The notes under the pieces are model-generated. The model did not search any database, had not been told where the DNA came from, and saw only the letters and a program-made list of their open reading frames with translations. DNA of 64,000 nt, taken from the NCBI RefSeq assembly GCF_000737325.1, contig NZ_CP011125.1, positions 8,928,001 to 8,992,000 of the forward strand. Reading direction: 5' to 3'. Each line of letters opens with the position of its first letter. Position 1 is the first letter of the stretch. Origin of the DNA: Sandaracinus amylolyticus. GTDB lineage: Bacteria > Myxococcota_A > Polyangia > Polyangiales > Sandaracinaceae. This document shows, in pieces, positions 13,139 to 41,980 of this stretch. The position numbers and the translations under genes were made by a program.

Positions 13139-13143
13139 GGCGA

Positions 13144-13172
13144 TCGACGCGCTCTCGCGCGTGCCCTATCGT
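13144..13172 (+). promoter_or_regulatory. promoter of the EVE-domain gene
   Basis: TCGACG (13144-13149), 17-bp spacer, TATCGT (13167-13172), ending 8 bases before the ATG at 13181. The -35 matches four of six consensus bases. Confidence 0.5.
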
Positions 13173-13180
13173 CCGCCGCG

Positions 13181-13925: not shown

Positions 13926-13944
13926 GCCCAGCCCGGCTGGCGCG

Positions 13945-14634
13945 TCAGGTCTCTTCGACCTTCTTGCGGCGCGCTGGCTCGAGCTCGCGCGTCGGGCGGA
14001 CCTGCTCGAGGCCCGGCTGCGACGGCGCGCGCGCCGGCGGGAGCGCGGTGAAGCGACCGGTGCTCGCCGAGGACGCGCGCTGGGGCATCGGGGCGCCGCT
14101 CGCATCGCGCGCCGGATAGACGTCGCTCTTCGTGCGCGGGGGCGGCGGCGGAGGAACGCTGCTGCGCGGCTCGCGCTCGGCGCGCGGCGGCGGGACCGGC
14201 GTCTGCGACATCGCGCCGAGCGGCGCGCTGAACGTCTGCGAGAGCGTGCGCTGTCGTCCGCTCAGCCAGCGATGCGCCTCGTGCACCGCGCCGAACGCGC
14301 AGATCCCGGCGCGATGCGAGCGCGCGACCATGTTCACGCGCACGACCGCCATCTCGCTGCCGAGCACGAACGCGATCTGCTCGAAGACGCGCGCAGTGAG
14401 GAGCCAGCGCCACAGCGCATCGCGCACGTCGGGCGGGAGCTCGATCGCGTCGGCGGCGCGCGAGTCGATCAGCGCGCGACGCACGCCGGTGCGCCCGACG
14501 AGAAGCTCGAGCGCTGCGGCGTACTGATCGACCTCGTCGACGTTCCGGAGCGTGCCGTGCTCGACGATGAACAGATAACCCGGTCGGGTCTCGACCTCGA
14601 GGCGACCGCTCGGCAGCTCAACGGTGTCCCCCAT
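13945..14634 (-). CDS. hypothetical protein, STAS/SpoIIAA-like N-terminus
   Basis: The N-terminal 125 residues alternate strands and helices in a way like the STAS/SpoIIAA-type proteins found in myxobacteria (Y-L-F-I-V-E-H-G-T-L, R-A-L-I-D-S-R-A). The last 100 residues are a Pro/Arg/Ser-rich disordered tail. No signal peptide, no membrane segment. I cannot give a function. Confidence 0.6.
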   Translation of the reverse strand: MGDTVELPSGRLEVETRPGYLFIVEHGTLRNVDEVDQYAAALELLVGRTGVRRALIDSRAADAIELPPDVRDALWRWLLTARVFEQIAFVLGSEMAVVRVNMVARSHRAGICAFGAVHEAHRWLSGRQRTLSQTFSAPLGAMSQTPVPPPRAEREPRSSVPPPPPPRTKSDVYPARDASGAPMPQRASSASTGRFTALPPARAPSQPGLEQVRPTRELEPARRKKVEET

Positions 14635-14763
14635 TGTGCGTGCGACGCTACCGCGGGTCGGTAGGGCGCGCCACGGGGGGTTGGGTGACGGAGATCACGA
14701 GGCGAAGTGGGCGAATCGGACGCCCGCGCGGCCGGATCCGAGCGCGCGGGCGCCGGCGGCGAC

Positions 14764-15768
14764 TCAGCCGACCGTGGGCTCGTCGTACCGGACGATCGGG
14801 TTCCACGGCCCCGCGTTCGGACGCGGCTGCCAGTTGTGCCAGATCTCCGAGCCACGACCGAAGTAGAAGAGCTCGAGGCGGCCGTCCTGGTTCTGACCGA
14901 TCGCGAGATCGGTCGCTTCGTCACCGAGCACTTCCTGGTCGGTGCCCCAGTCGCCGTTCGCGTGGACCTGCCAGAGGTTCCGGATCTTCTTGTCGCCGTC
15001 GACGTAGAAGACCTCGAGGCGCCCGTCGCGGTTCTCCGCGACGTCGATGCGCTTGGCCTTCACGCCGAGGCTCTCCTGGCCGTGCCAGTCGCCGTTCGGC
15101 TCGAGCTGCCAGTCGTGCCAGACGATGTCGAGATCGTCGCGCCAGAACACCTCGAGGCGACCATCGGCGTTGCTGCCGACGACGATCTCGCGCGCCTTGC
15201 CCTGCAGCGCCTCGGCGCCGAACCAGTCGCCGTTCGGCTCCTTCTGCCAGTCGTGCATCACGGCGCCGTTCTCGCCGACGTAGAACACCTCGAGGCGACC
15301 GTCCTGGTTGCGACCGACCGCGACCGCGCTCGCGACCTTCGCGAGCTTCTCCGGTCCGTTCCAGTCGCCGTTCGGCGCGAGCTGCCAGTCGTGGTGGAGC
15401 GCGCCGTCCGCGCCGACGTAGAACACCTCGAGGCGACCATCCGCGTTGCTCGCGACCGCGAGCGCCTTCGCCTTCGCCTTCAGGTCCTCGGCGCCCGCCC
15501 ACTTGCCGCCCGGCGTGAGCTGCCAGTCGTGCATGAGCGTGCCGTCGGGCGCGACCCAGAAGACCTCGAGGCGTCCATCGGCGTTCACGCCGCAGCCGAC
15601 CTCGATCGCGTTCTGCTTCAGCGAGCTCTCGCCCTCCCAGAGACCGTTGGGCCGGCTCTGCCAGTTGTGGCGGAGCACTCCGTCCTTGCCGACGAAGAAG
15701 ACCTCGAGCCGTCCGTCACGGTTCCTGCCGATCGCGATCCGCTTCTCGCTGGAGATCTCACGCGTCAT
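14764..15768 (-). CDS. seven-bladed beta-propeller lectin-like protein
   Basis: 334 residues made of seven repeats of about 46, each with N-x-D-G-R-L-E-V-F, a D-G-x-x-x-H-x-W-Q strand and P-N-G-D-W-x-G. This matches the PLL/DUF346 propeller lectins, which bind fucose or other sugars in pockets between blades using His, Trp and Gln. All seven blades keep the D-G-R-L-E core, and most keep H-x-W-Q. No signal peptide, so it is either cytoplasmic or released by lysis or a non-classical route, as known for myxobacterial and Photorhabdus lectins. Start at 15768 has GGAGGG about ten bases upstream. Confidence 0.87.
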   Translation of the reverse strand: MTREISSEKRIAIGRNRDGRLEVFFVGKDGVLRHNWQSRPNGLWEGESSLKQNAIEVGCGVNADGRLEVFWVAPDGTLMHDWQLTPGGKWAGAEDLKAKAKALAVASNADGRLEVFYVGADGALHHDWQLAPNGDWNGPEKLAKVASAVAVGRNQDGRLEVFYVGENGAVMHDWQKEPNGDWFGAEALQGKAREIVVGSNADGRLEVFWRDDLDIVWHDWQLEPNGDWHGQESLGVKAKRIDVAENRDGRLEVFYVDGDKKIRNLWQVHANGDWGTDQEVLGDEATDLAIGQNQDGRLELFYFGRGSEIWHNWQPRPNAGPWNPIVRYDEPTVG

Positions 15769-15903
15769 CTGAGAAGGCCCTCCGGGTGTTTCTCTGCATC
15801 GCACTCGCCCGCTGGAAAGGCAAGCGTCGCGGGCGTCCGCCGCCGAGCACTTGGGTGCCGCGGCGCGCGTTCCTAGCTCGCATCGACCGAGGAGGAACGA
15901 CCC

Positions 15904-16302
15904 ATGGAGATGACCGCTCGGATGCTCGAGATGACGCCCGGGATCCGCATGCGCAGCGACCGCGCGCTGCTCGCGTGCATCGACGCGTGCTTCGAGTGCG
16001 CGCAGGTCTGCACGCTCTGCGCGAACGCGTGCCTGCAGGAGCGCATGGTCGCGATGCTGCGCCAGTGCATCCGGCTCAACCTCGACTGCGCCGACGTGTG
16101 CGACGCGACGGGGCGCGTGCTCTCGCGCGTCGGTCCGCACGGCACGCGCATGGCGCGCACGATGGTCGAGGCGTGCGCGATCGCGTGCGAAGAGTGCGCG
16201 CGCGAGTGCGAGCAGCACGCGGACGTGCACGAGCACTGCCGGCTGTGCGCGGAAGCGTGCCGGCGCTGCGAGCGTGCTTGTCGCGCGCTGCTCGCGTCGT
16301 GA
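15904..16302 (+). CDS. four-helix-bundle Cys-rich (copper-storage-like, DUF326) protein
   Basis: 132 residues with 20 or so Cys spaced as C-x3-C along predicted helices (A-C-I-D-A-C-F-E-C-A-Q-V-C, C-R-L-C-A-E-A-C-R-R-C). The layout matches Csp/DUF326 proteins, in which Cys line the inside of a four-helix bundle and bind many Cu(I) ions. No signal peptide, so it is the cytosolic Csp3-like type. A good AGGAGGAAC site precedes the ATG. A possible promoter TTGGGT-N17-TAGCTC lies upstream. It may buffer copper; I see no CueR/CopA partner here. Confidence 0.87.
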   Translation: MEMTARMLEMTPGIRMRSDRALLACIDACFECAQVCTLCANACLQERMVAMLRQCIRLNLDCADVCDATGRVLSRVGPHGTRMARTMVEACAIACEECARECEQHADVHEHCRLCAEACRRCERACRALLAS

Positions 16303-16331
16303 TCGAGCGCTGACGCGACGCTGGCGATGCC

Positions 16332-16360
16332 TTGACACTGGGACATCGCGCCGTCAGTTT
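16332..16360 (+). promoter_or_regulatory. promoter of the iron-uptake operon
   Basis: TTGACA (16332-16337), a 17-bp spacer, CAGTTT (16355-16360), then seven bases to the GTG start. The -35 box is perfect; the -10 is weak. The Fur-box-like site directly follows. Confidence 0.65.
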
Positions 16361-16367
16361 CGCGCGA

Positions 16368-16655
16368 GTGAGAATCATTCTTGACCGGGCGCCACGGGCG
16401 GCGGCGGTGCTCGCGATCGCGATCCGACTGGTCGCGAGCCTCGCCGTGGCGGTCTGCGTGGCCGCGGGGATGACGCGGTGGGTCCCTCCCGGCGGAGGCG
16501 TCGACCACGTCGTGGTGCCAGTCGTCGTCTTCCCGGTGATCTGGGCGACCGCGTTCCTCGTGCTCCAGGTCCGCCGAGGGCGGAGCGGGACGTCGGTCGC
16601 CGCCCTCGTCGCGGTCTCGGCCGCGAGCCTCCTGCCCTTCGTGATGGCGCGATGA
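16368..16655 (+). CDS. small integral membrane protein of iron-uptake operon
   Basis: About 95 residues from the GTG at 16368, with three hydrophobic segments and a short basic N-terminus. The GTG was chosen over an upstream TTG because that TTG is part of the -35 box. The stop overlaps the start of the PepSY gene (ATGA). Position at the head of a Fur-type operon suggests a helper for the reductase or transporter; no family recognised. Confidence 0.66.
   Translation: MRIILDRAPRAAAVLAIAIRLVASLAVAVCVAAGMTRWVPPGGGVDHVVVPVVVFPVIWATAFLVLQVRRGRSGTSVAALVAVSAASLLPFVMAR
16369..16384 (+). promoter_or_regulatory. Fur-box-like operator
   Basis: TGAGAATCATTCTTGA is close to the 7-1-7 Fur consensus TGAGAAT-N-ATTCTCA. 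It overlaps the start codon and first bases of the operon, so bound Fur would block transcription when iron is plentiful. Confidence 0.7.
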
Positions 16656-18268
16656 GCGAGCCGTCCGCGAGCGGGCCGTCGACGCGCCGTCGACTCTTCG
16701 AGGTGCACACGTGGAGCGGGCTCCTCGTCGGGCTCCTCGGCTTCGTGGTGATCGGCTCGGGCGCGATCGTCGTCTTCGCGGACGACATCGACGTGTGGGC
16801 GCACCGGGATCGACCGCACCCCGAGCTCCACGACGTCGACGCGCTCGGCCTCGAGCGAGCGATCGCGCGCGTCGCGACGACGGTGCCGCCCGAGCACCTC
16901 GAGGACATCGGCCTCTGGACGGCGCACGGCTCGGTCGTCGCGTGGATGCATCACCACACGACGGACGCGAGCGGCGCGCCCATCGAGCGCGGCACGGTGG
17001 TGCACCTCGACCCGGCCAGCTGGGGCGAGCGCGCGCGACGCAGCGGCACGGTCGACGAGGTGTTCGCGCCTTCGCCACGCGAGGCGCTCTCGCGCTTCTT
17101 CGTCGATCTCCACATCCGTCTGTTCCTGCCCGACACGACCGGGCTCTGGGCGACCGGCCTCGTGGGCTTCGGGCTCTTGCTGCTCGTGGTGACCGGGCTC
17201 TTCGTGCACCGGCCGTTCTTCCGTCACGCGACGCGGGTCCGCGGCACCGCCGCGCCGAGGAAGCTGCTGCACGATCTGCACACCGTGGTCGCGGTGTGGA
17301 CGCTGCCGTTCACCGCGGTGCTCTCGCTCACCGGCGCGTTCCTCTCGTTCGGCGGTGCGCTCGTGTTCCCGCTCCTCACCGAGGCCGCGTTCGGCGGGGA
17401 CGAGGCCGCGCTCGATCGCGCGTTCTCCGGCGCGCCCGAGCCCGCCGCCGAGATCGCGATCGCGCCCGCGACCACGGCGCTCGGCGCCGCGCTCACGGAC
17501 GCGCGCAGCCGCAGCGAGCACGACGCGCGGCGCGTCGAGTGGATCGAGGTCGCGCACTGGAGCCGCAGCGACGCGCACATGACGCTCTACACGAGCCCGG
17601 TGTTCGGCCCGCAGTACGACGTCTCGCATCGCTACGACGGCGACGGGACCTGGCGGAGCGTCCGCGCGTGCTTCGGGAACGGACAGTCGTTCGGCGGCGC
17701 GCTCTACCAGTGGATGTCGGCGCTCCACTACGGGAACTTCGGCGGAGGCCTGGTGCGCGCGCTGTGGATGCTGCTCGGCGTGCTCGCGGCGTCGCTCGCG
17801 CTGACCGGGCTCGGCATCTGGAGCGTGCGACGCACCGGCGGCGCCGAGGCGCGCGCAGGGCGCGTCGCGGGCGTGCTCACGATCGGCGCCGGGCTCGGGC
17901 TTCCGCTCGGCGCGGCGGTCGCGGTGCACGCGTGGGCGCTCGCGAACGCCTCCGGCGCGTCGCCGTACGCGGCGATGGCGGTGTCGCTGGTCCTCGGGCC
18001 GGCGATCGTCGTGTGGCACGCGGCGCGTCGTTCGTTCCGGAGCGTGCTGCGGCTCGGGCTCGTGGCGCTCGGCGTCGCGTGCGTGCTCGCGCCGCTCACG
18101 GCGCTCGTCGCGGTCGGGGATGCGTTCGGCGCGGCGTGGTGGATCGACGTGACGTTCGCCGTGACGGGCATCGCCGCGATCGCCGCGGGAGCACGCATCG
18201 GGCGCGCCGTCGCGCCGGACGTCGTGCGCCGCGTCGCGGTCTCCGGCCCGAGCGCGCGCGAGGCATGA
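16652..18268 (+). CDS. PepSY-domain membrane protein (ferric reductase-like)
   Basis: About 538 residues. Layout: first membrane helix at about 18-42, PepSY-like periplasmic region, conserved D-L-H-I-R-L-F-L and further helices with paired His (L-L-H-D-L-H-T), a second PepSY region, then a block of four or five C-terminal helices. PepSY-associated membrane proteins next to TonB receptors reduce ferric siderophores or handle haem. The histidines that could bind haem are present (H-x3-H pairs). Coupled upstream by ATGA and one base from the TonB receptor gene, in the same Fur-type operon. Confidence 0.83.
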   Translation: MSEPSASGPSTRRRLFEVHTWSGLLVGLLGFVVIGSGAIVVFADDIDVWAHRDRPHPELHDVDALGLERAIARVATTVPPEHLEDIGLWTAHGSVVAWMHHHTTDASGAPIERGTVVHLDPASWGERARRSGTVDEVFAPSPREALSRFFVDLHIRLFLPDTTGLWATGLVGFGLLLLVVTGLFVHRPFFRHATRVRGTAAPRKLLHDLHTVVAVWTLPFTAVLSLTGAFLSFGGALVFPLLTEAAFGGDEAALDRAFSGAPEPAAEIAIAPATTALGAALTDARSRSEHDARRVEWIEVAHWSRSDAHMTLYTSPVFGPQYDVSHRYDGDGTWRSVRACFGNGQSFGGALYQWMSALHYGNFGGGLVRALWMLLGVLAASLALTGLGIWSVRRTGGAEARAGRVAGVLTIGAGLGLPLGAAVAVHAWALANASGASPYAAMAVSLVLGPAIVVWHAARRSFRSVLRLGLVALGVACVLAPLTALVAVGDAFGAAWWIDVTFAVTGIAAIAAGARIGRAVAPDVVRRVAVSGPSAREA

Positions 18269-18269
18269 G

Positions 18270-20423
18270 ATGAGCGCGCGCGTCGCCGTGCTGATCGCGC
18301 TCGCGCTCGCGACGTGCGCGTCGCGCGCCCTCGCGCAGGATCCAGACGCGCCCGATCCGGCGTCGGACGAGCTCGACGACGACGATTTGCTCACCGAGGA
18401 CGTCGTCGTGTCGACGACGAGCGAGGCCGACGCGATCGCGGAGTCGGCGGACTCGGTGCTCGTGCTCGAGACCGACGTCGTGCGCATCCAGGCCGCCGAC
18501 GCGGGCGAGGTCCTCGCGCGACAAGAAGGGATCTCGGTGCGCCGCGGAGGAGGGCTCGGCTCGAGCGCGCGCATCTGCATCCACGGGATCTGCGACGCCG
18601 GGATCCGCTACTTCCTCGACGGCGTCCCGCTCGAGCTCGCAGGGTTCGGCCACGGGATCTCGAACGTCCCGCTCTCGATGGTCGAGCGCGTCGAGATCTA
18701 TCGCGGCGCGGTTCCGATCCGGCTCGGCACGGACGCGCTCGGCGGCGTGATCGACCTCGTGCGCGAGCAGGCGTACTTCGTCCCGCACGCGTCGGCATCG
18801 CTCCTCGCGGGCTCGTGGGGCACCTACCGCGCGTACGTCGACGGCGGCTACCGGCACGACGCGTCGGGCTTCTACGCGGGCGCGAGCGCGTTCGTCGATC
18901 ACGCGGACAACGACTACCCGATCGACGTGCTCGTGACCGACGCGGCGGGGCGCCTCTCACCGGCGCGCGTGCGCCGCTTCCACGACGCGTACGACGCGTA
19001 CGGCGTCGCGGCGGAGGTCGGTCTCGTCGGCGTCCCGTTCGCCGATCGGCTCCTGCTCCGCGGCTTCGTGAACGAGTACGACCGCGAGCTCCAGCACAAC
19101 GTCGTGATGACGGTGCCCTACGGCGAAGTGACGTACGGCGAGGTCTCGGCGGGCGGGCTCCTCCGCTACTCGCACACGATCGACACGCAGTGGTCGATCG
19201 ACGCGTTCGCCGGCTACACGCGCCGCGAGATCACGTTCCGCGACGCGTCGACGTGGGTCTACGACTGGCACGGACGGCGCGTCCGCGAGCGACGCGTCGC
19301 GGGCGAGATCGATCCTCGCGCGCGCGACCAGGTCGTGTGGGAGGACGCGGCGCCGGCGCGCCTGACGCTGTCGTTCCAGCTCACGCCCGAGCATCTCTTC
19401 GTCGCGAACGTCACGCCCGAATTCACGAGCCGCTCGGGCGACGAGCGCGTCCAGGTCGATCCGATGGCGCGCGATCCGCTCAGCGCGCAGCGCGACCTCT
19501 TCACGATGGTCTCCGGCATCGAGCACCGCATGAGCGTCTTCGACGACGCGCTCGAGACGTCGCTGTTCATCAAGGACTACGTCTACGCGAGCGCGTCGGA
19601 GGAGGTGCTGCGGGACTCGATCGTCGCGCGCCACGATCGCAGCACGCACGACGTCGGCGCCGGCGCGGCGGCGCGGTACCGCATCGCCGACGGCATCCTC
19701 GCGCGCGCGACGTACGAGTACGCGACGCGCCTGCCCGAGCCGTACGAGGTGTTCGGCGACGGAGTCCTCGTCGTCGAGAACCTCGATCTTTTGCCCGAGC
19801 GCAGCCACAACGCGACGCTCGAGGGATCGCTCGACGTGCGCGCCGACCCGGGGCGCTTCGAGGCGAGCATCGCCGGCTTCGTGCGCGCGCGGGAGAACAT
19901 GATCGTCCTCCTCGGCACCCAGCGGAGCTTCTCCTATCAGAACGTGTACAGCGCGCTCGTCGTCGGCGGCGAGGCGTCGGTGCGCTGGACGAGCCCGGGC
20001 GACTGGGTCGTGCTCGCCGCGAACGCGACGTACCAGGAGGACCGGAACACCAGCGCCGAGGGCACGTTCGCGCGGGTCCGCGGTGATCGCATCCCGAACC
20101 GGCCCTTCTTGTTCGCCAACTTCTCGGCCGAGCTCCACGCGAGCGGCGTGCTCGGCCATCGCGACGAGCTGACGCTCGGATGGCGTGGCCGCTACGTCCA
20201 CGAGTTCTTCCGCGGCTGGGAGTCGCAGGGGAGCGTCGAGCACAAGCAGACGGTGTCCTCGCAGCTCGCGCAGGACGTGTGGCTCACCTACGTGGTCGAC
20301 GGCGAGCCGCGCATCTCGACGTCGCTCGAGGTCCAGAACCTCGCGGACGCGGCGCTCTTCGACTTCTTCGGCGCGCAGCGCCCGGGGCGCTCGTTCTTCG
20401 TTCGCGTCACGGCGGAGCTCTGA
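18270..20423 (+). CDS. TonB-dependent outer-membrane receptor
   Basis: 717 residues. Signal peptide ending S-R-A-L-A-Q, a TonB-box-like segment (E-D-V-V-V-S), the plug domain (V-R-R-G-G-G-L-G-S-S and Y-F-L-D-G-V-P-L, M-V-E-R-V-E-I-Y-R-G), then a barrel of many strands ending S-F-F-V-R-V-T-A-E-L. Two Cys pairs flank the plug loop (I-C-I-H-G-I-C), unusual and possibly a disulphide. Takes up ferric siderophore or haem using TonB energy (family knowledge). The operon contains no biosynthesis gene, so it may use foreign siderophores. Confidence 0.92.
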   Translation: MSARVAVLIALALATCASRALAQDPDAPDPASDELDDDDLLTEDVVVSTTSEADAIAESADSVLVLETDVVRIQAADAGEVLARQEGISVRRGGGLGSSARICIHGICDAGIRYFLDGVPLELAGFGHGISNVPLSMVERVEIYRGAVPIRLGTDALGGVIDLVREQAYFVPHASASLLAGSWGTYRAYVDGGYRHDASGFYAGASAFVDHADNDYPIDVLVTDAAGRLSPARVRRFHDAYDAYGVAAEVGLVGVPFADRLLLRGFVNEYDRELQHNVVMTVPYGEVTYGEVSAGGLLRYSHTIDTQWSIDAFAGYTRREITFRDASTWVYDWHGRRVRERRVAGEIDPRARDQVVWEDAAPARLTLSFQLTPEHLFVANVTPEFTSRSGDERVQVDPMARDPLSAQRDLFTMVSGIEHRMSVFDDALETSLFIKDYVYASASEEVLRDSIVARHDRSTHDVGAGAAARYRIADGILARATYEYATRLPEPYEVFGDGVLVVENLDLLPERSHNATLEGSLDVRADPGRFEASIAGFVRARENMIVLLGTQRSFSYQNVYSALVVGGEASVRWTSPGDWVVLAANATYQEDRNTSAEGTFARVRGDRIPNRPFLFANFSAELHASGVLGHRDELTLGWRGRYVHEFFRGWESQGSVEHKQTVSSQLAQDVWLTYVVDGEPRISTSLEVQNLADAALFDFFGAQRPGRSFFVRVTAEL

Positions 20424-23113: not shown

Positions 23114-24781
23114 TCAACGCCGGCGGCGCGTGATCGCGAGCGCGATCACCACACCGACGGCCAACAGCACGCTGGCTCCTCCTGCGCGCGAGCTCGCGCT
23201 CGCCGCGCAGCGCGGTCCTCCTCCGCCCGGACGCAGCGCGCGGCGCGCTGCCGTCGCCCGCAGGCGATCCTCGGACGTCCACGGCGCGAAGTCGCCGCTG
23301 CGCATGTCGTCGCAGAGGTCCTCGTCGCTCCCGCCGTACGCGATGCCCTCGCGCCACCGCTCGGCCCGACCGCTCGGCAGCTCGATGCGCTGCGGCGCGG
23401 TCCAGTGCAGGTACTGCTCGCTGCACTCCGTCACGACCGTCGCGACGTGCGCGTTCGAAACGTCGGGCAGGCCCGAGTCGAGCGAGAACGTCGGGTCGAG
23501 CGTCATCTCGTCGGCGCTCATCGTCGTGAAGAGGCGCGTGAGCCGCGCGTGCCGCGCGAGCATCTGCTGCGCCTCGCGACGCGGCTCGACGATCTGCGTC
23601 TCGAGCGCGGCGACGAGCCCCGCCGCGTCGAGCTCGCCGTCGAAGCCGCACGTCGCGGCCGAGCCCCACGAGAAGAAGAGGCAGTTGTAGTACTGGCTCG
23701 GATCGCTCGCGTACATCGCAGGCGGCGGCAGGAAGCGCGCGAGGATGCCGAGGAGCTGCGAGTCGCCGACGAACCCGCGGCCGCGCAGCTGCTGGAGGAG
23801 GTCGGTCGGATCGGTGAGCGTCGCGAGGTCGCTCACCGAGGGCAGCTCGAGGAAGAGATCGGGCGTGCGCCCCGCGAACTCGGGCACGAAGCCGCGCCCA
23901 CCCGCGTCGTCGATCAGGTTCGAGACGTACGTCGGGTAATACGAGAAGTCCCGCCACAGCCGGACGTCGTCGTACGTGGGCTCGACGCGCGAGTAGTTGT
24001 TCGGCGTCGCGTACCGATCGGCGAGGAAGTACGCGATGATCGGCATGTCGGGGATCGTCGCGATCGCGGTCAGGCGGATCGGCACGCACGGCTGGCCCTC
24101 GCGATAGCGCAGCACGATCGGCTGGATCTCGCGGGTGCTCGCGTTCGCGAGGAGCTTCAGCGCGACGAAGACGTGGCGCGCCGCGACGTAGTCCGCGACG
24201 AGCGGGCGCGACGAGTCGGGGATGCGGTACTCGTTCTCGTCGAGCCACGCGAAGAGCTCGTCGGCCGAGCCCGACTGCAGCACGACCGCGTCGTACGGAC
24301 CGACCGCGCCGCGGAAGTGGACGGTCACGCCGCCGCCCGCGTCGGCGAACGAAGCGCCGGCGTCGGCGACCGCGCCGGGCGCGGGCCACGGGCCGTCGTC
24401 GGTGCCGTCGAGCTCGCAGCGCTCGGGCGGGTAGCGGCAGGTGCCGTCGGTGCGGCTCGCGAGATCGAAGCGCGTCGCGGTGCGCTGGCCGAGCTGGCGG
24501 AAGAGCTCGTCGCTGCCGACGTCGAGCTCGGGCACGCTCGGGAGCGGGAGGATCCACGCGAACGCGTCGGCCTCGCCCGAGTAGAGGATCTGCACGTGCG
24601 TGGTGAGCGTGCCGTCCCCCTCGATCGAGAAGAGGATGTTCTCGCCCGCCTGATCCATCGGGACGTTCTGGCAGAAGAACCCGCCGCACGCGGACGCGCG
24701 ATCGGGCGCGAGCAGCGATGCGCCGAGCGCGATCCCGAGCGCGCCCATGCACGACGTCCACCGACGATCGTTGGTGCTCAT
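23114..24781 (-). CDS. DUF2330 secreted protein with C-terminal membrane anchor
   Basis: About 555 residues beginning with a signal peptide that ends at A-C-G-G-F-F-C, the diagnostic DUF2330 start. A strand-rich ectodomain follows, and the C-terminus is Cys, a helix and R-R-R-R, similar in plan to MYXO-CTERM though without the C-G-C motif. DUF2330 proteins have no established function. Independent unit, divergent from the ECF sigma factor gene. Confidence 0.84.
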   Translation of the reverse strand: MSTNDRRWTSCMGALGIALGASLLAPDRASACGGFFCQNVPMDQAGENILFSIEGDGTLTTHVQILYSGEADAFAWILPLPSVPELDVGSDELFRQLGQRTATRFDLASRTDGTCRYPPERCELDGTDDGPWPAPGAVADAGASFADAGGGVTVHFRGAVGPYDAVVLQSGSADELFAWLDENEYRIPDSSRPLVADYVAARHVFVALKLLANASTREIQPIVLRYREGQPCVPIRLTAIATIPDMPIIAYFLADRYATPNNYSRVEPTYDDVRLWRDFSYYPTYVSNLIDDAGGRGFVPEFAGRTPDLFLELPSVSDLATLTDPTDLLQQLRGRGFVGDSQLLGILARFLPPPAMYASDPSQYYNCLFFSWGSAATCGFDGELDAAGLVAALETQIVEPRREAQQMLARHARLTRLFTTMSADEMTLDPTFSLDSGLPDVSNAHVATVVTECSEQYLHWTAPQRIELPSGRAERWREGIAYGGSDEDLCDDMRSGDFAPWTSEDRLRATAARRALRPGGGGPRCAASASSRAGGASVLLAVGVVIALAITRRRR

Positions 24782-24858
24782 CCGGCTTCGTCCCCCCACA
24801 CCGGCGCCCTGACGTCGCGCGCCGCGCGGGTGCGAACAGCAAGTCACGCGCCTGCAGG

Positions 24859-24896: not shown

Positions 24897-25019
24897 GCGC
24901 GGGGGCGCTCGGCGACGTGCGGAGGCGTGCCACGTGGAGATCGTCGCGCGACGTGGCGCGTCCGTGGGGGACGCCGCGTCGATCACGCGCGCGGTCACAG
25001 CGAGCGGGGACGCAGTCAC

Positions 25020-25604
25020 ATGGACGACAGGATGACCTGGGCGATGCCGCAGACGAACCCGGATCCCATCGAGGATCCGATCGAGCGATCGATCCGGGCG
25101 GGCGCGTTCCGAGACGCGATCGCCCTGTGCGCGCGCATGCATGGAGCGCCCCTCGGGCGGCTCTGCATGGCGATGTTGGGGAGCCAAGCCGAAGCGGAGG
25201 AGTGCGTGCAGGAGGTCCTGCTCGCCGCGCACGACGCGTTCCCCAGCTACCGCGGGGAAGGCACGGTGCGCGCGTTCCTCTTCGGCATCGCGCGACGGAT
25301 GTGCGCGCGACGGCTCGAGATGCGAGGACGACGCGAGCGCCGGCTGCGGCTGGTGCACGACGCGGACGCACCGTCGAGCGACCCGGAAGGGCTGCTCGAG
25401 GCGCGACGCGAAGCGGAGAAGGTGCGCGACGCGCTCGAGCGACTGAAGCCGAGCGAGCGCGACGCGGTGGTGATGCGGTACCAGGGCGGCCTCGAGTACC
25501 GCGAGATCGCCGCAGCGTGCGGCATCGACGAGCCCGCCGCGCGCAAACGCGTGAGCCGGGGACTGGCGCGGATGAAGGAGCTGCTCTCGGAGGTCGAGCG
25601 ATGA
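25020..25604 (+). CDS. ECF RNA polymerase sigma factor
   Basis: About 194 residues. Region 2 is seen in E-A-E-E-C-V-Q-E-V-L-L-A-A-H-D-A-F with R-A-F-L-F-G-I-A-R, and region 4 in R-D-A-V-V-M-R-Y-Q-G-G-L-E-Y-R-E-I-A-A with a helix-turn-helix ending A-A-R-K-R-V-S-R. The start at 25020 is the first ATG consistent with the family length. The stop overlaps the start of the huge FecR-VIT-vWA gene (ATGA), so the two proteins are made in step, as for sigma/anti-sigma pairs. Confidence 0.88.
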   Translation: MDDRMTWAMPQTNPDPIEDPIERSIRAGAFRDAIALCARMHGAPLGRLCMAMLGSQAEAEECVQEVLLAAHDAFPSYRGEGTVRAFLFGIARRMCARRLEMRGRRERRLRLVHDADAPSSDPEGLLEARREAEKVRDALERLKPSERDAVVMRYQGGLEYREIAAACGIDEPAARKRVSRGLARMKELLSEVER

Positions 25605-28600
25605 ACCGCAACGAGAACATGGAGAAGTTGCTCGACGAGCTCGCGCTCGTGGTCGACGGCGATCGCGAGGCGATGGAGCGTCATGCGGACTTCCTCGCCG
25701 ACGACGACGAGGCGCGCGACCTCAAGCACGACGCGATGGAGACCGCGGAGCGCCTGGCGGAGGCGGGCGCGGACTACGTGCCGCCGGCGGACCTCGAGGC
25801 GCGGCTGATGGCGGCGCTCGATGCGCGCGCGGCGGGCACGGTGCCTGCGGTCGAGGGCACGACGCGCAAGACCGATCCCGGGTTCGTGCTCGACCCGCAC
25901 GCGCAAGCGGAGATCGCGAAGGTCGAGGCGCGCATGAACGAGCCCGCGCCGATCGCGGAGCGCGCGGTCGCGCCGACGGTCGCGATGCGCGAGGTCGTGG
26001 AGCCCGCGCCGCGCGAAGAGGCGAAGAAGGTCGAGCCCGCGCGTGGCAACGGGCTCGCGAAGGTGATCGTGCTCTTCGGCGCGCTGGGCGTCGCGGCCGC
26101 GGCGGCCGCCGCGCTCGTGGTGATCGGCGCGAGCATGCTCGGCGGCGGCGAAGAGGTCGCCGAGGGCGAGACCGAGACGCCGGTCGTGATCGCGCAGGGC
26201 GCGACGACGGGGCGCGTCGTGGAGATCGCGCGCTCGTCGAGCGACGGCGCGAGCGGCGTGCAGGTGCGCGCGGCGGGCGGCGCGTGGCAGCCCGCGACGC
26301 AGGGCGCGGAGATCGCGGCGGGCGCGGCGATCCGCACCGACGAGCGCACGCGCGCGCGCATCACGCTCTCGGACGGCAGCGAGATGGTGCTCAACCACTC
26401 GACCGAGGTGCGCTTCGACCCCCAGCAGGCGCGCCGCTTCGAGCTGCCCGCGGGCGAGGTGCTCGCCGAGATCGCGCACCTCGAGAACGGGCCGAACCTC
26501 GGCATCACGGTGCCGACCGGGCGCGTCGAGGTGCTGGGCACGAAGTTCGTGCTCGCCGCGACGCCCGAGAGCGCGAGCGTGCGCGTGACCCGCGGCACGG
26601 TGCGCGTCCACGGTGCGAACCAAGGCTCGCGCGAGGTGAAGAGCGGCGAAGAGGGCGTGCTGCGCGCGAACGCGGCGCCCGAGGTCGCGCCGGTGATGGA
26701 CCTCGCGCGCTCGCTCTCGTGGAGCGAGCTGAACAACGTCGTCGCGCAGGACGATCCCGAGACCACGCTGCCCGGCATCGGCTCGCTGCGCGCGCGCCGT
26801 CCCGGTGAGCGCGAGGATCGCGAGCGCCCGCTCACGCTCGCGCGCCACGACGTGCGGGTGCGCATCGTCGGCAACGTCGCGCGCACCGAGATCGAAGAGG
26901 TCTTCCGCAACGACTCGGACGCGACGCTCGAGGGCATCTACCGCTTCCCGCTGCCCGCAGACGCGCAGATCGCGCGCCTCGCGCTCGACGTGAACGGCGT
27001 GATGGAAGAGGGCGCGTTCGTCGCGCGCGAGCGCGCGCAGCGCATCTGGCGCGGCGTGATCCGCAACGCGACGCCGGTCGCGGAGCGCCGTCCCACGGAG
27101 GAGTTCATCTGGGTGCCCGGCCCGTGGCGCGATCCCGCGCTGCTCGAGTGGCAGCGGGGCGGTCAGTTCGAGCTGCGCATCTTCCCGATCCCCGCGCACG
27201 GCGAGCGTCGCGTGGTGATCGCGTACACCCAGACGATCGCGCCGACGGCCGAGGGCCGTCGCTACGTGTACCCGCTCGCGCACTCGCGCGACGAGTCGCT
27301 GCGCGTCGGGGAGTTCAACGTCGACGTGCGCGTCGCGAACGCGCAGCGCGTGAACGCGTCGGGCTACCAGGTGCGCAGCGCAGCGGACGCCGACGCGACG
27401 CGTCTCTCGTACCAGCAGACGGGCTTCCTGCCGAACGGCGATCTCGTGATCGACTACGCGATCCCGGGCGGTGAGCGCGAGCTCGCGTTCTGGACCTACC
27501 AGGGCGACGCCGCGCAGGCGCCGCCCGCGCAGAGCCGCGATCAGGATCGCGAGGTGATCGATCTGCAGCGTCAGATCGCGGCGGACTCGCGGCCCTACGT
27601 CGCGTTCGCGCTGCGGCCCGAGCTGCCGGCGCGCACCGAGGGCGCGGCGCGCGACTACGTGATCGTCGTCGACTCGAGCCAGTCGATGGTCGGCGAGCGC
27701 TTCCAGCGCGCGAGCCGTCTCGTGTCGGGCGTGATCGCGGAGATGGATCGCCGCGATCGCTTCACCGTGCTCGCGTGCGACTACGAGTGCCGCTCGATGG
27801 AGGGCACCGCCGAGAACGCGCGGATGCGCGTGCCGAGCGCGGGCGAGATGTCACAGGTCTCGCAGTGGCTCTCGCGCGTGGAGCCCGCGGGCGCGAGCGA
27901 TCTGATCGCGACGATGCGGACCGCGTCGCGCGCCGGATCGGCGCAGCGCGAGACGAGCCGCCGCGTGCACGTGATCTACGTCGGTGACGGCGTCGCGTCG
28001 GCGGGCCATCGCAGCACCGCGGCGCTGAGCTCGGAGGCCGAGCGCCTCGCGACGAGCGCGCACGTCGCGTTCACGACCGTCGGCATCGGCGGTGACGCGG
28101 ACGCGACCTCGCTCGCGGCGATCGCGCGCAGCGGTGGGGGTCACTACGTGCCCTTCGTGCCCGGCCAGCGCGCGTCGCTCGCGGCGCTCTCGGTGCTCGA
28201 GACGACGTACGGCGTCGCGCTGCGCGACGCGCGCCTCGAGCTGCCCTCGGGCCTCGTCGAGGTCGCGCCCGAGCGGCTTCCGACGATCCGCGCCGGTGAA
28301 GAGGTGATCGTCACCGCGCGCATGAGCAGCGCGAGCGAGCTGAGCGGTGACGTCGTGCTGCGCGGCACGGTGGGCGGCGAGCCCTTCGAGCAGCGCTATC
28401 CGGTGCGCCTCGTGCCGAGCACCGCGGCGGGCAACCGCTTCGTGCCCGCGCTCTGGGCCGCGCACCGCATCGAGCAGATCGAGGCCGCGGGGCGCGGCGA
28501 GGACGAGGCGCGCATCGTCGCGATGAGCAAGGCGTACTCGGTGATGTCGCGCCACACGTCGCTGCTCGTGCTCGAGAGCGAGGCGATGTTCCGCGCGTTC

Positions 28601-29977
28601 GGCATCGATCGCGCGGAGGCCCCGGTCGCGCAGTGGACCGGCGAGGACGACGTCGAGGGCGGCACGGCCATCGGCGCGCTCGCGCTGCCGCCGAGCGAGA
28701 TGGGCGGCGTCGGCGACGTGCTCGCGGGCGGCGCGGTGACGAGCTCCGCGAGCGGCGCCGGTCGGAGCGGCGGTGGGGAAGCGGCCGCGGGCTTCGCGAC
28801 CTCGGGCACCCGCGCAGCGCGCCGCGCCCCGGCGGAACCGACGGTCACCGAGGCCGCGCCGATGGCGGAGGAAGCGGAGGAGCGCTCGCGCGGGCGCGCG
28901 GCCGACTCGAGCGCGGTCGCGCAGACGCGTGACGACTTCGATCGCGCGTGGCGCGAGCAGCAGCAGCAGGCGCCGCAGCGGCCGCCCGCCGCCGCCGCGC
29001 CGACCCCGACCGTGCCCGCGATGCGTCCGCGTGGACCCGGTCAGTGGATGCGCCGCGTGTACTACCGCGTCGGCGAGATCCAGGAGGACGGCGCGCCGAG
29101 CTTCCGCGAGCAGGAGCAGGCGCGGCTCGCGGAGGAGTCGCTGCGCATGCAGCCCGACAGCCGCGATCGTCATCGTGCCGCGGTTCGTGCGCTCTCGCGC
29201 GCCGGCAACCTCGAGCGCGCGCTCGAGGTGGCGGAGGCGTGGTTCTCGCGCGATCGCCTCGACCCCGAGGCGCTCGTGGCGCGGGCCGACGTGCTGGCGC
29301 GGCTCGGTCGCCGTGACGAAGCGCTGCGCCTCCTGACCGGCGTGGTCGACGTGCGGCCCGACGACGCGGCGCTCCACACCCGTCTCGCCGGCGCATTCGA
29401 GCGTGCGGGCGACGAAGCGCGCGCGTGCGCGCACCGGATCTCGCTCGCCGAGATCCGCAACGAGGACGCCGAGATCGTGGCGGACGCGGTGCGCTGCGAG
29501 CGCATGGCGAGCCACCGCGAGCTCGCGCAGCTCCTCCTCGACGGAGTGCGCGAGGACCGTGCGCGCACCCGCGCTGCGACGCTCGCCGAGCAGGCGGACG
29601 ACGCGCGCCGCAGCCGCGGCGAGATCACGGTGGAGGCGAGCTGGCCGGGCGGTGACGACGTCGACGTCGCGCTGATCGCGCCCGACGGCTCGCGCCTCTC
29701 GTGGATGGGCGGGCGCACGACGATCGTCGGTGAGGACGCGCGTCGCGACGGGCGCGAGACGATCGGGCTCTCGCGCGCGACGGTGGGCAACTACCTCGTC
29801 GAGGTCGCGCGCACGAGCCCCGAGCAGCGCGGCGCCATCCGCGGCACGCTGCGCATCCGCGCGCTCGACGGGACGCGCACCGTGCCCTTCGTGATCGACG
29901 ACGGCGAGCGCGAGAGCGTCGCGCGCATCGTGGTGCGTCGCGAGAGCCGCATGGAGGCCGTGGGCGCAGGGTGGTGA
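25601..29977 (+). CDS. giant FecR-VIT-vWA-TPR membrane protein, probable anti-sigma partner
   Basis: 1458 residues. Order: cytosolic helical N-terminus (1-150), membrane helix (about 154-180), FecR-like domain (about 205-365), VIT domain (about 410-545, with I-Y-R-F-P-L-P and R-E-R-A-Q-R-I-W), vWA domain (about 684-870) with MIDAS D-S-S-Q-S, a disordered Gly/Ala/Pro linker, TPR-like repeats (about 1165-1335) and a C-terminal DUF2135-like strand domain (P-G-G-D-D-V-D-V-A-L). In other bacteria the FecR part regulates ECF factors, while VIT-vWA is an inter-alpha-trypsin-inhibitor-like adhesion unit. Fusing both, coupled to the sigma gene, suggests an envelope sensor that turns on transcription when its adhesive ectodomain is engaged (inference). 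A tandem hairpin follows the stop. Confidence 0.83.
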   Translation: MNRNENMEKLLDELALVVDGDREAMERHADFLADDDEARDLKHDAMETAERLAEAGADYVPPADLEARLMAALDARAAGTVPAVEGTTRKTDPGFVLDPHAQAEIAKVEARMNEPAPIAERAVAPTVAMREVVEPAPREEAKKVEPARGNGLAKVIVLFGALGVAAAAAAALVVIGASMLGGGEEVAEGETETPVVIAQGATTGRVVEIARSSSDGASGVQVRAAGGAWQPATQGAEIAAGAAIRTDERTRARITLSDGSEMVLNHSTEVRFDPQQARRFELPAGEVLAEIAHLENGPNLGITVPTGRVEVLGTKFVLAATPESASVRVTRGTVRVHGANQGSREVKSGEEGVLRANAAPEVAPVMDLARSLSWSELNNVVAQDDPETTLPGIGSLRARRPGEREDRERPLTLARHDVRVRIVGNVARTEIEEVFRNDSDATLEGIYRFPLPADAQIARLALDVNGVMEEGAFVARERAQRIWRGVIRNATPVAERRPTEEFIWVPGPWRDPALLEWQRGGQFELRIFPIPAHGERRVVIAYTQTIAPTAEGRRYVYPLAHSRDESLRVGEFNVDVRVANAQRVNASGYQVRSAADADATRLSYQQTGFLPNGDLVIDYAIPGGERELAFWTYQGDAAQAPPAQSRDQDREVIDLQRQIAADSRPYVAFALRPELPARTEGAARDYVIVVDSSQSMVGERFQRASRLVSGVIAEMDRRDRFTVLACDYECRSMEGTAENARMRVPSAGEMSQVSQWLSRVEPAGASDLIATMRTASRAGSAQRETSRRVHVIYVGDGVASAGHRSTAALSSEAERLATSAHVAFTTVGIGGDADATSLAAIARSGGGHYVPFVPGQRASLAALSVLETTYGVALRDARLELPSGLVEVAPERLPTIRAGEEVIVTARMSSASELSGDVVLRGTVGGEPFEQRYPVRLVPSTAAGNRFVPALWAAHRIEQIEAAGRGEDEARIVAMSKAYSVMSRHTSLLVLESEAMFRAFGIDRAEAPVAQWTGEDDVEGGTAIGALALPPSEMGGVGDVLAGGAVTSSASGAGRSGGGEAAAGFATSGTRAARRAPAEPTVTEAAPMAEEAEERSRGRAADSSAVAQTRDDFDRAWREQQQQAPQRPPAAAAPTPTVPAMRPRGPGQWMRRVYYRVGEIQEDGAPSFREQEQARLAEESLRMQPDSRDRHRAAVRALSRAGNLERALEVAEAWFSRDRLDPEALVARADVLARLGRRDEALRLLTGVVDVRPDDAALHTRLAGAFERAGDEARACAHRISLAEIRNEDAEIVADAVRCERMASHRELAQLLLDGVREDRARTRAATLAEQADDARRSRGEITVEASWPGGDDVDVALIAPDGSRLSWMGGRTTIVGEDARRDGRETIGLSRATVGNYLVEVARTSPEQRGAIRGTLRIRALDGTRTVPFVIDDGERESVARIVVRRESRMEAVGAGW

Positions 29978-30066: not shown

Positions 30067-31302
30067 ATGCGCATCTCCTTCGTCGTGATCCTGAGCAGCC
30101 TCGTCGTCGCGTGCGGCGGCGCGGCGTCCTCCTCGCCACCACGCGACACCACGCCCGCGGCACGCGCGGGCGGCGGTTGCAACGTCGCGCCGGTCGCGCT
30201 GCGCTTCGCTTGGCCCGACGGCATGCGCGCGCGGGTGCGGGGCGTCGATCTCACCGAGAGCGCGTTCGCCGACGGCTCGCACCCGATGCGCGGCGAGTCG
30301 GTCTCCGAGCTGCGCCTTGAGGTGAGCGCGGAGGGCGACACGCGGCGCATGCGGTTCCTCGTCGAAGGACGCAACCGCTTGCGCAGCCAGGGCCTCGCGC
30401 CCGACATCGCCGGCGCGCGCCCGACGCTCGTGCTCGACGGCGGCGGCGCCGTGGTCGGCGTCGAGGGTGTCGACGAGATGCGCCGCGCGCTCGGCGATGC
30501 AGTCGCGCGCGGCGAGCTCGATCCGCGCTCGGTCGCGATGATCGAGCCGAACCTCACCGCCGAGGCGCAGCTCGCGACCGCGCACGCCCACTGGGACTGG
30601 GTCGTGCGCGCGTGGAGCGGGCAGACGCTCGGGTGCGGACAGGTCGTCCGCGGCTCGGCGACCGTGCCTGCGCTCTCCCTCGGGACGACGACGCCGACCG
30701 AGGTCGACACCGAGCTCGAGCTGATCGGTGAAGCGCCCGGCGAGGCGGCGGTCTCGCCCGAAGCGCGGTGCGTCGCGCTGCAGGTGCGCCAGCGCGCGCG
30801 CCCGGGCTCGCTCCGGTCCGCGCTCGCCGGGTTCGCGGCGCAGCAGGGCGCCGTGCTCGCGAACGCGACGCTCGAGCGCACGATCGATCTCGTGGTCGAG
30901 GTCGCGACGCTCGCGCCGCACCGGATCGTGGTGGAGGAGCGCACGTCGCTCACGTGGCGCGCGCCGGGGCAGCCCGACCTCACGCGCAACATCGTCGATC
31001 GACAGGACTACGCGTTCGACTACGCGGTCGTGCCGACGCCGGGCGCCCAGCGCAGCACTCAGATCGTGGTGGACCCCGAGGGCGGCGGGTTCGCGGTGTT
31101 CCGTGACGGCCAGCAGGTGCAGCTGCCGCCGACGCCCGCGTGCCGAGCCTTCGTCGCGTGCTGCGGCGCGATCGCGAGCGCGGGCCCGATCTGCGGCATC
31201 CTCGTCGCGCAGCACGAAGGCGGCGACTGCACCGAGGAGCTCGCGACGGTGCGCCTCGTCGCGGCCGGCGGCGACGGCGAAGTGCCCACCGAGTGCCGCT
31301 GA
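30067..31302 (+). CDS. lipoprotein of unknown function
   Basis: About 411 residues with lipobox V-V-A-C-G-G and a Ser/Thr/Ala-rich linker, then a mostly beta domain with two Cys and a Cys pair near the C-terminus (A-C-C-G-A and C-G-I-L). The stop lies inside a hairpin (31301-31325) similar to the one following the giant gene upstream. Secreted or periplasmic. No family recognised. Confidence 0.75.
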   Translation: MRISFVVILSSLVVACGGAASSSPPRDTTPAARAGGGCNVAPVALRFAWPDGMRARVRGVDLTESAFADGSHPMRGESVSELRLEVSAEGDTRRMRFLVEGRNRLRSQGLAPDIAGARPTLVLDGGGAVVGVEGVDEMRRALGDAVARGELDPRSVAMIEPNLTAEAQLATAHAHWDWVVRAWSGQTLGCGQVVRGSATVPALSLGTTTPTEVDTELELIGEAPGEAAVSPEARCVALQVRQRARPGSLRSALAGFAAQQGAVLANATLERTIDLVVEVATLAPHRIVVEERTSLTWRAPGQPDLTRNIVDRQDYAFDYAVVPTPGAQRSTQIVVDPEGGGFAVFRDGQQVQLPPTPACRAFVACCGAIASAGPICGILVAQHEGGDCTEELATVRLVAAGGDGEVPTECR

Positions 31303-39192: not shown

Positions 39193-40173
39193 ATGCGAGC
39201 GCGCGGCGCCGTGATCGTGATCGCGCTCTGCGCCCTCGCCTCGCGCGCGGCGGCGGACGGACGCGTCGTGCTGCGCATCGCGAGCGACGATCCACTGAGG
39301 AGCGCGCTCGCGTTCGAGCTCCGACAGCGCGGCCTCGAGACGATCGACGACGCCCCGCCCGGCGAGGGTGACGCGCAGCGGCGCGCGCACGAGTCGCGCG
39401 TGATGGCGCAGGCGCTCGGCGCCGACGCGGCGCTCTGGGTCGACGCGGGGCCGGACTGGCAGACCGCGGTGGTGCGCGTCGTGCGCGCGGAGGATGGACG
39501 CGAGACGAGCACGCCGCTGCCACGTCGCGCGCTGATCGACGAGCCGCGCGAGGCCGCGCTCGTCGCGTCGGTGCTCGTCGAGGAGCTGCTCGCCATGCCG
39601 ATCACGCCGCCGCCGCCTCCACCACCGACGACGTCGGACGCGGAGCGCGCGCCCGTGATCGCGAGCGCGCCGCGCGACGTCGTGATCGCCGAGGAGCGCG
39701 TGTTCGGGCTGCTCGCGACGGGCTTCTGGATCGAGCCTGCGCGCGCCGCGCGCGGAGGGTTCGCGGTGCGGGGCGCGGTCGGGCTCGAGTGGCGGAGCGG
39801 GCTTCGCGCCGCGGTCTCGCTCGCGGCGATGCCGACCAACGAGAGCGGCGAGTGGAACGACCGTCGGGTGTCGGGCCTCGCGGGCGCGATCGCGATCGGC
39901 GTCGAGGGCGGGCTGCGCGCGGCGGTGCCGGGCCACGCGCTGTCGATCGGCGCGCACGCGGTGATCGGGCAGGCGCGCCACGTCGGGCTCGCGATCGATC
40001 GCGAGCCGATGCCGTGGTCGTTCGTCGCGATCCTCGGCGGGCACGCGGGGATGACGATCCCGATGGGCCGCACCGCGGAGATGGGCGTGCGCATCGACGT
40101 CGACGTGTGGCTCGCGGCGGAGCGCGCGGCGATGCCCGCGGTCGGGCTCTCGACGCAGTGGGGATGGCGATGA
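39193..40173 (+). CDS. secreted protein encoded with a sigma/FecR pair
   Basis: About 326 residues: signal peptide (C-A-L-A-S-R-A-A-A), an N-terminal domain of about 110 residues, a Pro-rich linker, and a C-terminal strand-rich half (G-F-A-V-R-G-A-V-G-L-E-W-R-S-G-L) that looks like a small barrel or porin-like domain. The stop overlaps the sigma factor start (ATGA). It may be the surface signal receiver for the pair that follows, by analogy with other sigma/FecR loci (inference). Confidence 0.72.
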   Translation: MRARGAVIVIALCALASRAAADGRVVLRIASDDPLRSALAFELRQRGLETIDDAPPGEGDAQRRAHESRVMAQALGADAALWVDAGPDWQTAVVRVVRAEDGRETSTPLPRRALIDEPREAALVASVLVEELLAMPITPPPPPPPTTSDAERAPVIASAPRDVVIAEERVFGLLATGFWIEPARAARGGFAVRGAVGLEWRSGLRAAVSLAAMPTNESGEWNDRRVSGLAGAIAIGVEGGLRAAVPGHALSIGAHAVIGQARHVGLAIDREPMPWSFVAILGGHAGMTIPMGRTAEMGVRIDVDVWLAAERAAMPAVGLSTQWGWR

Positions 40174-40787
40174 GCGACGCGCTGCGGCTCGATGCGCTCG
40201 CCGACTGGGTGCACCTGTCACCGGGCACACAGGACGACCGCGTGATGCTCGAGCGCCTCGTCGCGCGGCTGCGAGGAGGCGACGACCGCGTGCTCGAGCG
40301 CGTGGTGCGCGAGCTCGTGCCCTCGGTGCGGCGCTGGGCGTACCGCCTGCTCGGACCGCATCCCGAGCTCGACGACGCGATCCAGGACTCGCTCGCGGAG
40401 ATCGCGTCGGCGCTGCCTCGCTTCGAAGGGCGCTCGAGCGTCGCGACGCTCTCGCATCGCATCGTGGTGCGCACCGTCGCGCGCTACTACGGGCGAAGGC
40501 GCGCGCGCGGCGATCACGACGTCGAGACGCTCCCCGACGAAACGAGCTGTCCCGAGCGCGCGCTCTCGTCGCGACAGCGCGTCGCGCGGCTCTACGCGCA
40601 CCTCGACGCGCTCTCCGAGCCGCGGCGCACGGCCTTCGTGCTCTGCGCGATGGAGGAGATGTCGCCGAGCGAGGCGGCGGCGATCGTCGGGTGCACGCCG
40701 CTCGCGATGCGCAGCCGGTTGTTCGATGCGCGGCGCGAGCTCGAGGCGCGGATCGCGAAGGACGCGGCGCTGAGGAGGGAGCGATGA
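40170..40787 (+). CDS. ECF-like RNA polymerase sigma factor
   Basis: About 205 residues; region 2 (L-D-D-A-I-Q-D-S-L-A-E-I-A) and region 4 (R-R-T-A-F-V-L-C-A-M-E-E-M-S-P-S-E-A-A-A, then a helix-turn-helix with A-M-R-S-R-L). The ATG at 40170 is chosen over 40164 because it follows GGGGA at proper spacing and overlaps the preceding stop. Its own stop overlaps the FecR gene start (ATGA), so the three proteins are stoichiometrically linked. Confidence 0.82.
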   Translation: MSDALRLDALADWVHLSPGTQDDRVMLERLVARLRGGDDRVLERVVRELVPSVRRWAYRLLGPHPELDDAIQDSLAEIASALPRFEGRSSVATLSHRIVVRTVARYYGRRRARGDHDVETLPDETSCPERALSSRQRVARLYAHLDALSEPRRTAFVLCAMEEMSPSEAAAIVGCTPLAMRSRLFDARRELEARIAKDAALRRER

Positions 40788-41980
40788 GCGAGCTCGACGA
40801 GCTGCTCGAGGACGCGCGCGCGCTCGAGCCTCGGCACGGCGAGGCCGACGATGCGTCGCTCGCGAGGCGTGCCGTGCTCGCCGGCCGCGCGCGAGCACGC
40901 GCGAGGGCGTGGCGCGCCCGGATCGCGCTCCTCGGAGCGGGGGTCGCGATCGCCGCGATCGCGCTGCTCGCGTGGACGCCCGAGAAGGCGCGGCGCGAGA
41001 CGGTCGCGCACGAGATCGTCGAGCTCACGCTGCCCACCGGCGATCGGCTCGCGACGACGGGCGATGCGCGCTTCGAGGTCCGCTCCGCCGAGCGCGCGCG
41101 ACGCATCCATCTCGCGCAGGGCGCCGCGATGTTCGACGTCGCGCCGCTCGGGCCGGGATCGTCGTTCGAGGTGTCGACGCCGCACGCGATCGTCGCGGTG
41201 CGCGGCACGGTGTTCGTCGTCGAGGTCGGAGCGCGCGCGACCTCGGTGCGCGTCTACGAGGGACACGTCGAGGTTCGTGCGCGCGGCGAGCGCCTCGCGC
41301 TGCACGCGGGAGACCACGTCCATCGCGACGCTGCGACCCAGCGGAGCGCGCGGCTGGAACGCCGCGCCCGCGAAGCCGCCGATCGACGCGCGCGCGTCGC
41401 GCGCATCGCGGCACCGGAGCCCGACGCGGACCAAGCACACGCGTCGGATCCGCCTGCTGCATCACCGCGCCCTCGCGCCACGCGACGCGCGCATCCGACG
41501 ACGACGCGCGCGGAGCCCGCGATCGACCCCACCGAGCGGCGCGACGCGGCGCGCGCCCACCTGCTGCAAGGCGATCCCGCGGCCGCGCTCGCCGCGCTGC
41601 CGCCGCCGCCCGAGCGCGACGGAGAATGGACGCTGCTCGAAGCCGACGCACTGCGCGCGCTCGGTCGCGATGCCGAGGCCGCGCACACCTACGAGCGCGC
41701 CGCGCGCACGCTGCCTCCCGGCCTCGCGCGGAGCGCGGGGTTCCTCGCGGCCGAGCTCTACCTGCGTCGCTTGCACGATCCCGCGCGCGCGCTCGCCGCG
41801 CTCGACGCGAGCCGCGTCGACGCGGAAGGCACCGCGCTGCGCGAGCGCGCGCTGGTGCTCCGCGCCGAGGCGCAGCTCGCGAGCGATCGTCGCACCGAGC
41901 TCACCGAGACCGCGCGCCGCTACCTCGATGCGTACCCGAACGGCCCGCGCGCCGCGTGGATGCAGCTCCACGCGCAGTGA
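40784..41980 (+). CDS. FecR-domain membrane protein, anti-sigma/regulator
   Basis: About 398 residues: short cytosolic N-terminus, membrane helix at about 47-65, FecR domain (L-T-L-P-T-G-D-R-L-A-T-T-G-D-A-R-F-E-V, I-V-A-V-R-G-T-V-F-V-V-E-V), then a Pro/Ala linker and a TPR-like C-terminal half. The arrangement (sigma factor, FecR membrane regulator, separate secreted protein) parallels the 25-30 kb locus, but without the VIT-vWA fusion. A perfect palindrome just after the stop may end transcription. Confidence 0.83.
   Translation: MSELDELLEDARALEPRHGEADDASLARRAVLAGRARARARAWRARIALLGAGVAIAAIALLAWTPEKARRETVAHEIVELTLPTGDRLATTGDARFEVRSAERARRIHLAQGAAMFDVAPLGPGSSFEVSTPHAIVAVRGTVFVVEVGARATSVRVYEGHVEVRARGERLALHAGDHVHRDAATQRSARLERRAREAADRRARVARIAAPEPDADQAHASDPPAASPRPRATRRAHPTTTRAEPAIDPTERRDAARAHLLQGDPAAALAALPPPPERDGEWTLLEADALRALGRDAEAAHTYERAARTLPPGLARSAGFLAAELYLRRLHDPARALAALDASRVDAEGTALRERALVLRAEAQLASDRRTELTETARRYLDAYPNGPRAAWMQLHAQ

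Follow-up and report, generated by a model that had tools for sequence, protein, structure and literature searches.

The locus analyzed here raises the question of whether a giant membrane protein holds the ECF sigma factor encoded directly upstream of it and, if so, by which of its domains and at which promoters the released sigma factor would act. The window, i.e., the whole stretch of 64,000 nucleotides that was analyzed, lies in the 10.33 Mb genome of Sandaracinus amylolyticus, which is a single contig. The initial annotation had the stop of the sigma gene overlap the start of a gene for a 1458-residue membrane protein, and the two open reading frames (25020-25604 and 25601-29977) do indeed share four nucleotides (25601-25604) with the sequence ATGA. 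The features of the operon are as follows:

24991-25026, forward strand: predicted operon promoter, with GGTCAC at 24993-24998 and (GT)CAC at 25015-25019 (24.9 bits)
25020-25604, forward strand: ECF sigma factor gene, 194 aa (Pfam Sigma70_r2 and r4_2; NCBIfam sigma70-ECF)
25601-29977, forward strand: gene of the giant, a predicted anti-sigma factor and sensor of 1458 aa (Pfam domains, relatives and alignment)
25601-25834, forward strand: predicted cytosolic class I anti-sigma domain, aa 1-78 (C...HxxxCxxC in relatives; RsiW, RsrA and zf-HC2 matches)
26048-26152, forward strand: single transmembrane segment, aa 150-184 (hydropathy; hydrophobic at aa ~150-182)
26327-26605, forward strand: FecR domain, aa 243-335 (Pfam PF04773, 1.7e-15; 27/27 sequences)
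26843-27226, forward strand: VIT domain, aa 415-542 (Pfam PF08487, 2.8e-15; 27/27 sequences; model matches ITIH1)
27659-28147, forward strand: vWA domain, aa 687-849 (Pfam VWA_3, 6.3e-13; MIDAS invariant)
29102-29590, forward strand: TPR superhelix, aa 1168-1330 (model with pLDDT 90; Foldseek TPR matches)
29624-29956, forward strand: C-terminal beta-sandwich, aa 1342-1452 (model; PPC-like match below threshold)

The true start of the sigma gene is probably the ATG at 25032 or 25044 rather than the one at 25020, since the predicted -10 element extends to 25019 and adjoins the latter. At the other end of the operon, 89 nt 3' of the giant, lies a gene for a 411-aa putative lipoprotein (30067-31302, forward strand) which matched no Pfam family, has a counterpart only in a locus of the same genus (L044) and may be co-transcribed with the giant.

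The first 540 residues of the giant were used as a query against 56 relatives, of which 41 gave a match, 35 of them at E < 1e-60. The sigma gene was found directly upstream and on the same strand in 30 of the 32 loci retrieved, where the overlap of -4 is often repeated, and likewise directly upstream in 67 of 80 named loci from Sandaracinaceae, Polyangiaceae, Sorangium cellulosum, Polyangium, Labilithrix and Kofleriaceae MAGs; ten of the 13 exceptions in this second set have 351 or fewer bases of upstream sequence. The initial annotation had pointed to conserved coupling in other Polyangiales, and this was borne out: when both sets, which share some genomes, are pooled, the sigma gene is directly upstream in 97 of 112 loci, and 11 of the 15 exceptions end at a contig edge. 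Judged from gene order, the pair recurs across the order far beyond chance, while the genes flanking it are otherwise conserved only inside the genus. The distance correlation (mirror-tree) was 0.44 between sigma and anti-sigma domain, no higher than the 0.50 between sigma and ectodomain, and therefore does not discriminate. Viral contigs scanned with single proteins gave no relatives, and tblastn against plasmids gave only VIT-vWA relatives that cover at most 41% of the query and from which the anti-sigma part is absent. It should be noted that one locus (L070, G022:C144) carries two giant homologues within ~8 kb, with a sigma gene found upstream of the second only.

The FecR, VIT, vWA and TPR content proposed by the initial annotation was recovered with Pfam (TPR at aa ~1222-1275, 5e-5), the vWA domain being found in all 27 giant-family sequences. 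The MIDAS, which had been described as intact, proved to be invariant at D691, S693, S695 and D796 in the 27 aligned sequences. The cysteine pairs C726/C730 and C1276/C1299 are also invariant in the family alignment, which fits the expectation for extracytoplasmic domains. A model of residues 186-1010 (pLDDT 82) had inter-alpha-inhibitor heavy chain 1 as its top match (E 1e-28), and a C-terminal model (pLDDT 90) showed a TPR superhelix and, after it, a beta-sandwich. The sandwich had been described as DUF2135-like, an identity which we reject: DUF2135 gave no Pfam match at E <= 1 in the window's giant and does not appear in the family lists of the relatives. A PPC match below threshold was obtained in four of the 27 sequences. 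With its VIT domain followed by a vWA domain with MIDAS, the giant shares the arrangement of the ITIH heavy chains (ITIH1, 6fpy, is the best solved-structure match at 1.1e-28) and of the marine sortase target proteins, but differs from both in being a predicted membrane-anchored anti-sigma factor, and it scores 119 bits against a cutoff of 552 for the marine sortase target model TIGR03788. The initial annotation had suggested that surface adhesion or substrate binding is directly coupled to sigma release; by topology from the inner-membrane anchor the vWA domain would be periplasmic, and the roughly 1270-residue part beyond the membrane (FecR, ITIH-like VIT-vWA, TPR, beta-sandwich) is read as a periplasmic sensor.

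The part that holds the sigma factor is likely to be the cytosolic N-terminal domain, of class I, and not the FecR domain. Zinc-type class I anti-sigma domains are marked by the motif C...HxxxCxxC, which divergent relatives have in their N-terminus, and a profile of the domain searched against the PDB matched RsiW (5wuq, 6.6e-6) and RsrA (5frf, 1.1e-3); two designed repeat proteins outscored these in the same search, only via summed weak repeats. The profile comes from an alignment of 22 rows, one of which (L058) has a one-residue slip (MTDSP for MSDSP) that is of no consequence for the outcome. Pfam zf-HC2 was matched by eight of 27 relatives at E <= 1, with 0.0018 as the best value. As in the class I anti-sigma factors RsiW, RsrA and ChrR, the cytosolic anti-sigma domain, which resembles solved members, is N-terminal, and its gene directly follows that of an ECF sigma factor, an adjacency conserved in the relatives; the zinc motif of these factors is also present in many relatives of the giant. 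Unlike them, the giant has an ectodomain of ~1270 residues with FecR, VIT, vWA, TPR and beta-sandwich, and in its family the zinc site has changed several times. The initial annotation had coupled the giant to the sigma factor by way of a FecR-type regulatory domain: the coupling is upheld by linkage, anti-sigma domain and operon promoter, and the part of regulator passes from FecR to the N-terminal class I domain as the candidate.

The presence of a FecR domain does bring to mind cell-surface signaling of the FecI/FecR type, in which the signal of a TonB-dependent receptor would reach the FecR domain, with sigma activity depending on the cytosolic part. As in those systems (AS243), the sigma gene of the window is followed by that of a protein which spans the membrane once and has its FecR domain in the periplasm, and a TonB-dependent receptor gene is found at 18270-20423. 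However, the N-terminus of the giant is RsiW/RsrA-like, and no FecR-type N-terminal regulator domain is listed for the 27 members; by Pfam the receptor is composed of plug and barrel only, with no N-terminal signaling domain reported; the pair has no linked signaling receptor; and the neighboring genes are not conserved beyond the genus. The window pair further differs in its additional VIT-vWA-TPR part and in predicted targets unrelated to those of iron signaling. Membership in FecI/FecR was rejected on the RsiW/RsrA-like N-terminus, and we regard this type of signaling as very improbable here. A simpler sigma/FecR operon, placed at 39.2-42.0 kb by the initial annotation as a comparison, is present in the window with corrected coordinates (sigma 40158-40787, FecR 40784-41980, forward strand). 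Its FecR protein has a short cytosolic N-terminus, and the anti-sigma profile of the giant family gave no match to this second pair (40158-41980).

The genome also encodes a tandem pair of lipoproteins, 1604 and 1379 aa long, whose genes share one base (L009:8274-13088 and 13088-17227; G000:C1 10.224-10.233 Mb) and near which no sigma gene was found. They resemble the giant in the FecR-VIT-vWA-TPR order of their modules, the FecR match of the first copy falling short of the Pfam cutoff, and differ from it by a lipobox, a TonB_C-like insert and the lack of an anti-sigma domain. Paired weaker matches (e.g., in G007:C1 and G011:C236) suggest that this tandem is conserved in relatives. Because these two lipoproteins of the same genome share the module order without a nearby sigma gene, FecR is best read as a part of the ectodomain. 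Their existence would also suit a VIT-vWA giant with a mainly structural or adhesive role, expressed by way of the neighboring sigma factor and exerting no inhibition on it, as would the conserved promoter of the operon. Against this, the cytosolic anti-sigma domain is conserved beside the sigma gene in nearly all relatives, and both homologues without an anti-sigma domain (L075 and L122) are also without a nearby sigma gene; two others (L153 and L154) have kept the domain but no sigma gene was found nearby. Such a role is in our judgement improbable.

Within the predicted anti-sigma domain the zinc ligands are an all-or-none trait: among 96 sequences, 55 have CHCC, three -HCC, one HHCC, and 37 are without the C..C pair. 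The Hx3Cx2C motif is missing from the window protein and its clade of 22 rows and is present in most other relatives. This motif is optional in class I, whose members occur with and without zinc, sometimes inside one group, RskA and RseA being zinc-free (PMC7406223), and its lack in the window protein is compatible with a class in which it is not obligatory. Mapped on the ectodomain tree, the trait requires five changes, at least four of which are forced by strongly supported branches, against 22.5 for shuffled labels. As judged from the alignment, the window's clade has lost all of its zinc ligands together.

A de novo count of bipartite words in the upstream regions of the relatives found GTCAC-N17-GCAC ahead of 30 of 79 sigma genes, while any word in shuffled sequences reached at most 7. 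The matrix derived from these regions was refined to GGTCAC[AG]AA-N14-[GC]CAC; 64 of 77 upstream regions score above the shuffled 99% level of 5.8 bits, and the reversed-sequence control gave no matches at 21 bits. Some branches, e.g., the Labilithrix-like one, are without this promoter.

Searching the relatives with the motif identified sites outside the operon near the starts of exported proteins. Genome-wide the counts rise only modestly over controls, with 99 matches vs. ~80 for a spacer one base longer, a search that served as a control only; a stricter pattern gave some 60 matches in 144 genomes, about twenty of which are operon promoters, and in the window's genome strict patterns showed no rise over controls. 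The motif search found the signature at a family of ~300-aa exported proteins in five genomes and at DUF2330 proteins in two species, both of one other genus. A protein search with the ~300-aa family identified 11 strong homologues in the 56 genomes searched, and all 11 genes have the signature closely upstream (p <= 0.001 in shuffling for every one); seven of these were found by protein similarity and not by the motif, and one (L248) is nearly identical to another (L247). The start codon follows the CAC by 7-9 nt in ten of the 11 genes, and the remaining one (L256) fits at its second ATG, a spacing which suggests that the mRNAs of this family are leaderless. The copy in the window's own genome (L259; G000:C1:6081026-6081952, reverse strand) encodes 308 aa and has a site of 16.3 bits. 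At the N-terminus the family has a hydrophobic segment, as is typical of exported proteins, and no Pfam family was matched in the two members scanned. As it is strong in only 11 of 56 genomes, the pathway must have other targets in much of the order. In the window a DUF2330 gene (23114-24847, reverse strand) is divergent from the sigma operon, an arrangement seen in three genomes of the genus, and no promoter-like site was found upstream of it. A different sigma factor might of course read the conserved promoter and control both operon and exported family, given that further sigma factors are encoded in the genome, including one in the window. This is rather unlikely, as the motif is present at the operon itself in 64 of 77 loci and as the giant is encoded in each of the 11 genomes where the exported family has a strong copy.

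The reading we prefer, and hold to be quite probable, is that of an order-wide, autoregulated sigma/anti-sigma pathway in which the giant holds the sigma factor and senses on the periplasmic side, and whose exported regulon is small; the sequence evidence for it consists of linkage, anti-sigma homology, topology, promoter and target association. The giant would be a single-pass inner-membrane anti-sigma factor whose N-terminal class I domain, by homology and conserved linkage, holds the sigma factor in the cytosol. A signal on the periplasmic side, in the simplest case a partner that binds to the vWA/TPR region or leaves it, would lead to release of the sigma factor via a conformational change or regulated proteolysis. 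Proteolytic release is known from RseA- and FecR-type systems (PMC9249621) and would by analogy be plausible here. The free sigma factor would then read GGTCAC[AG]AA-N14-[GC]CAC promoters, raising its own operon and turning on the ~300-aa exported protein, apparently from a leaderless mRNA.

The role of bacterial VIT-vWA proteins is, to our knowledge, mostly unknown. In the giant the VIT-vWA part is tied to a transcriptional output by anti-sigma homology, gene order and promoter, and the role of the ectodomain can therefore be tested with a reporter; promoter code and exported target would offer a direct read-out of the pathway, and the zinc site, having changed repeatedly in one orthologous family, lends itself to a natural test of the role of zinc in class I domains. 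The open-access literature that was searched on FecR with VIT, vWA with anti-sigma and DUF2330 gave no description of such a system. We lean towards an undescribed, order-wide envelope-sensing pathway of myxobacteria: an ITIH-like VIT-vWA ectodomain would control the ECF sigma factor by way of a class I anti-sigma domain from which the zinc site was lost repeatedly, and the pathway would have a recognizable promoter code and leaderless mRNAs for an uncharacterized exported family. In some relatives the targets of the sigma factor may include DUF2330 and other exported proteins. At one locus (L244, G052:C211) a promoter-like site of 32 bits lies 17 nt before the gene of a 737-aa exported-looking protein with CxxCH motifs, which is possibly another target.
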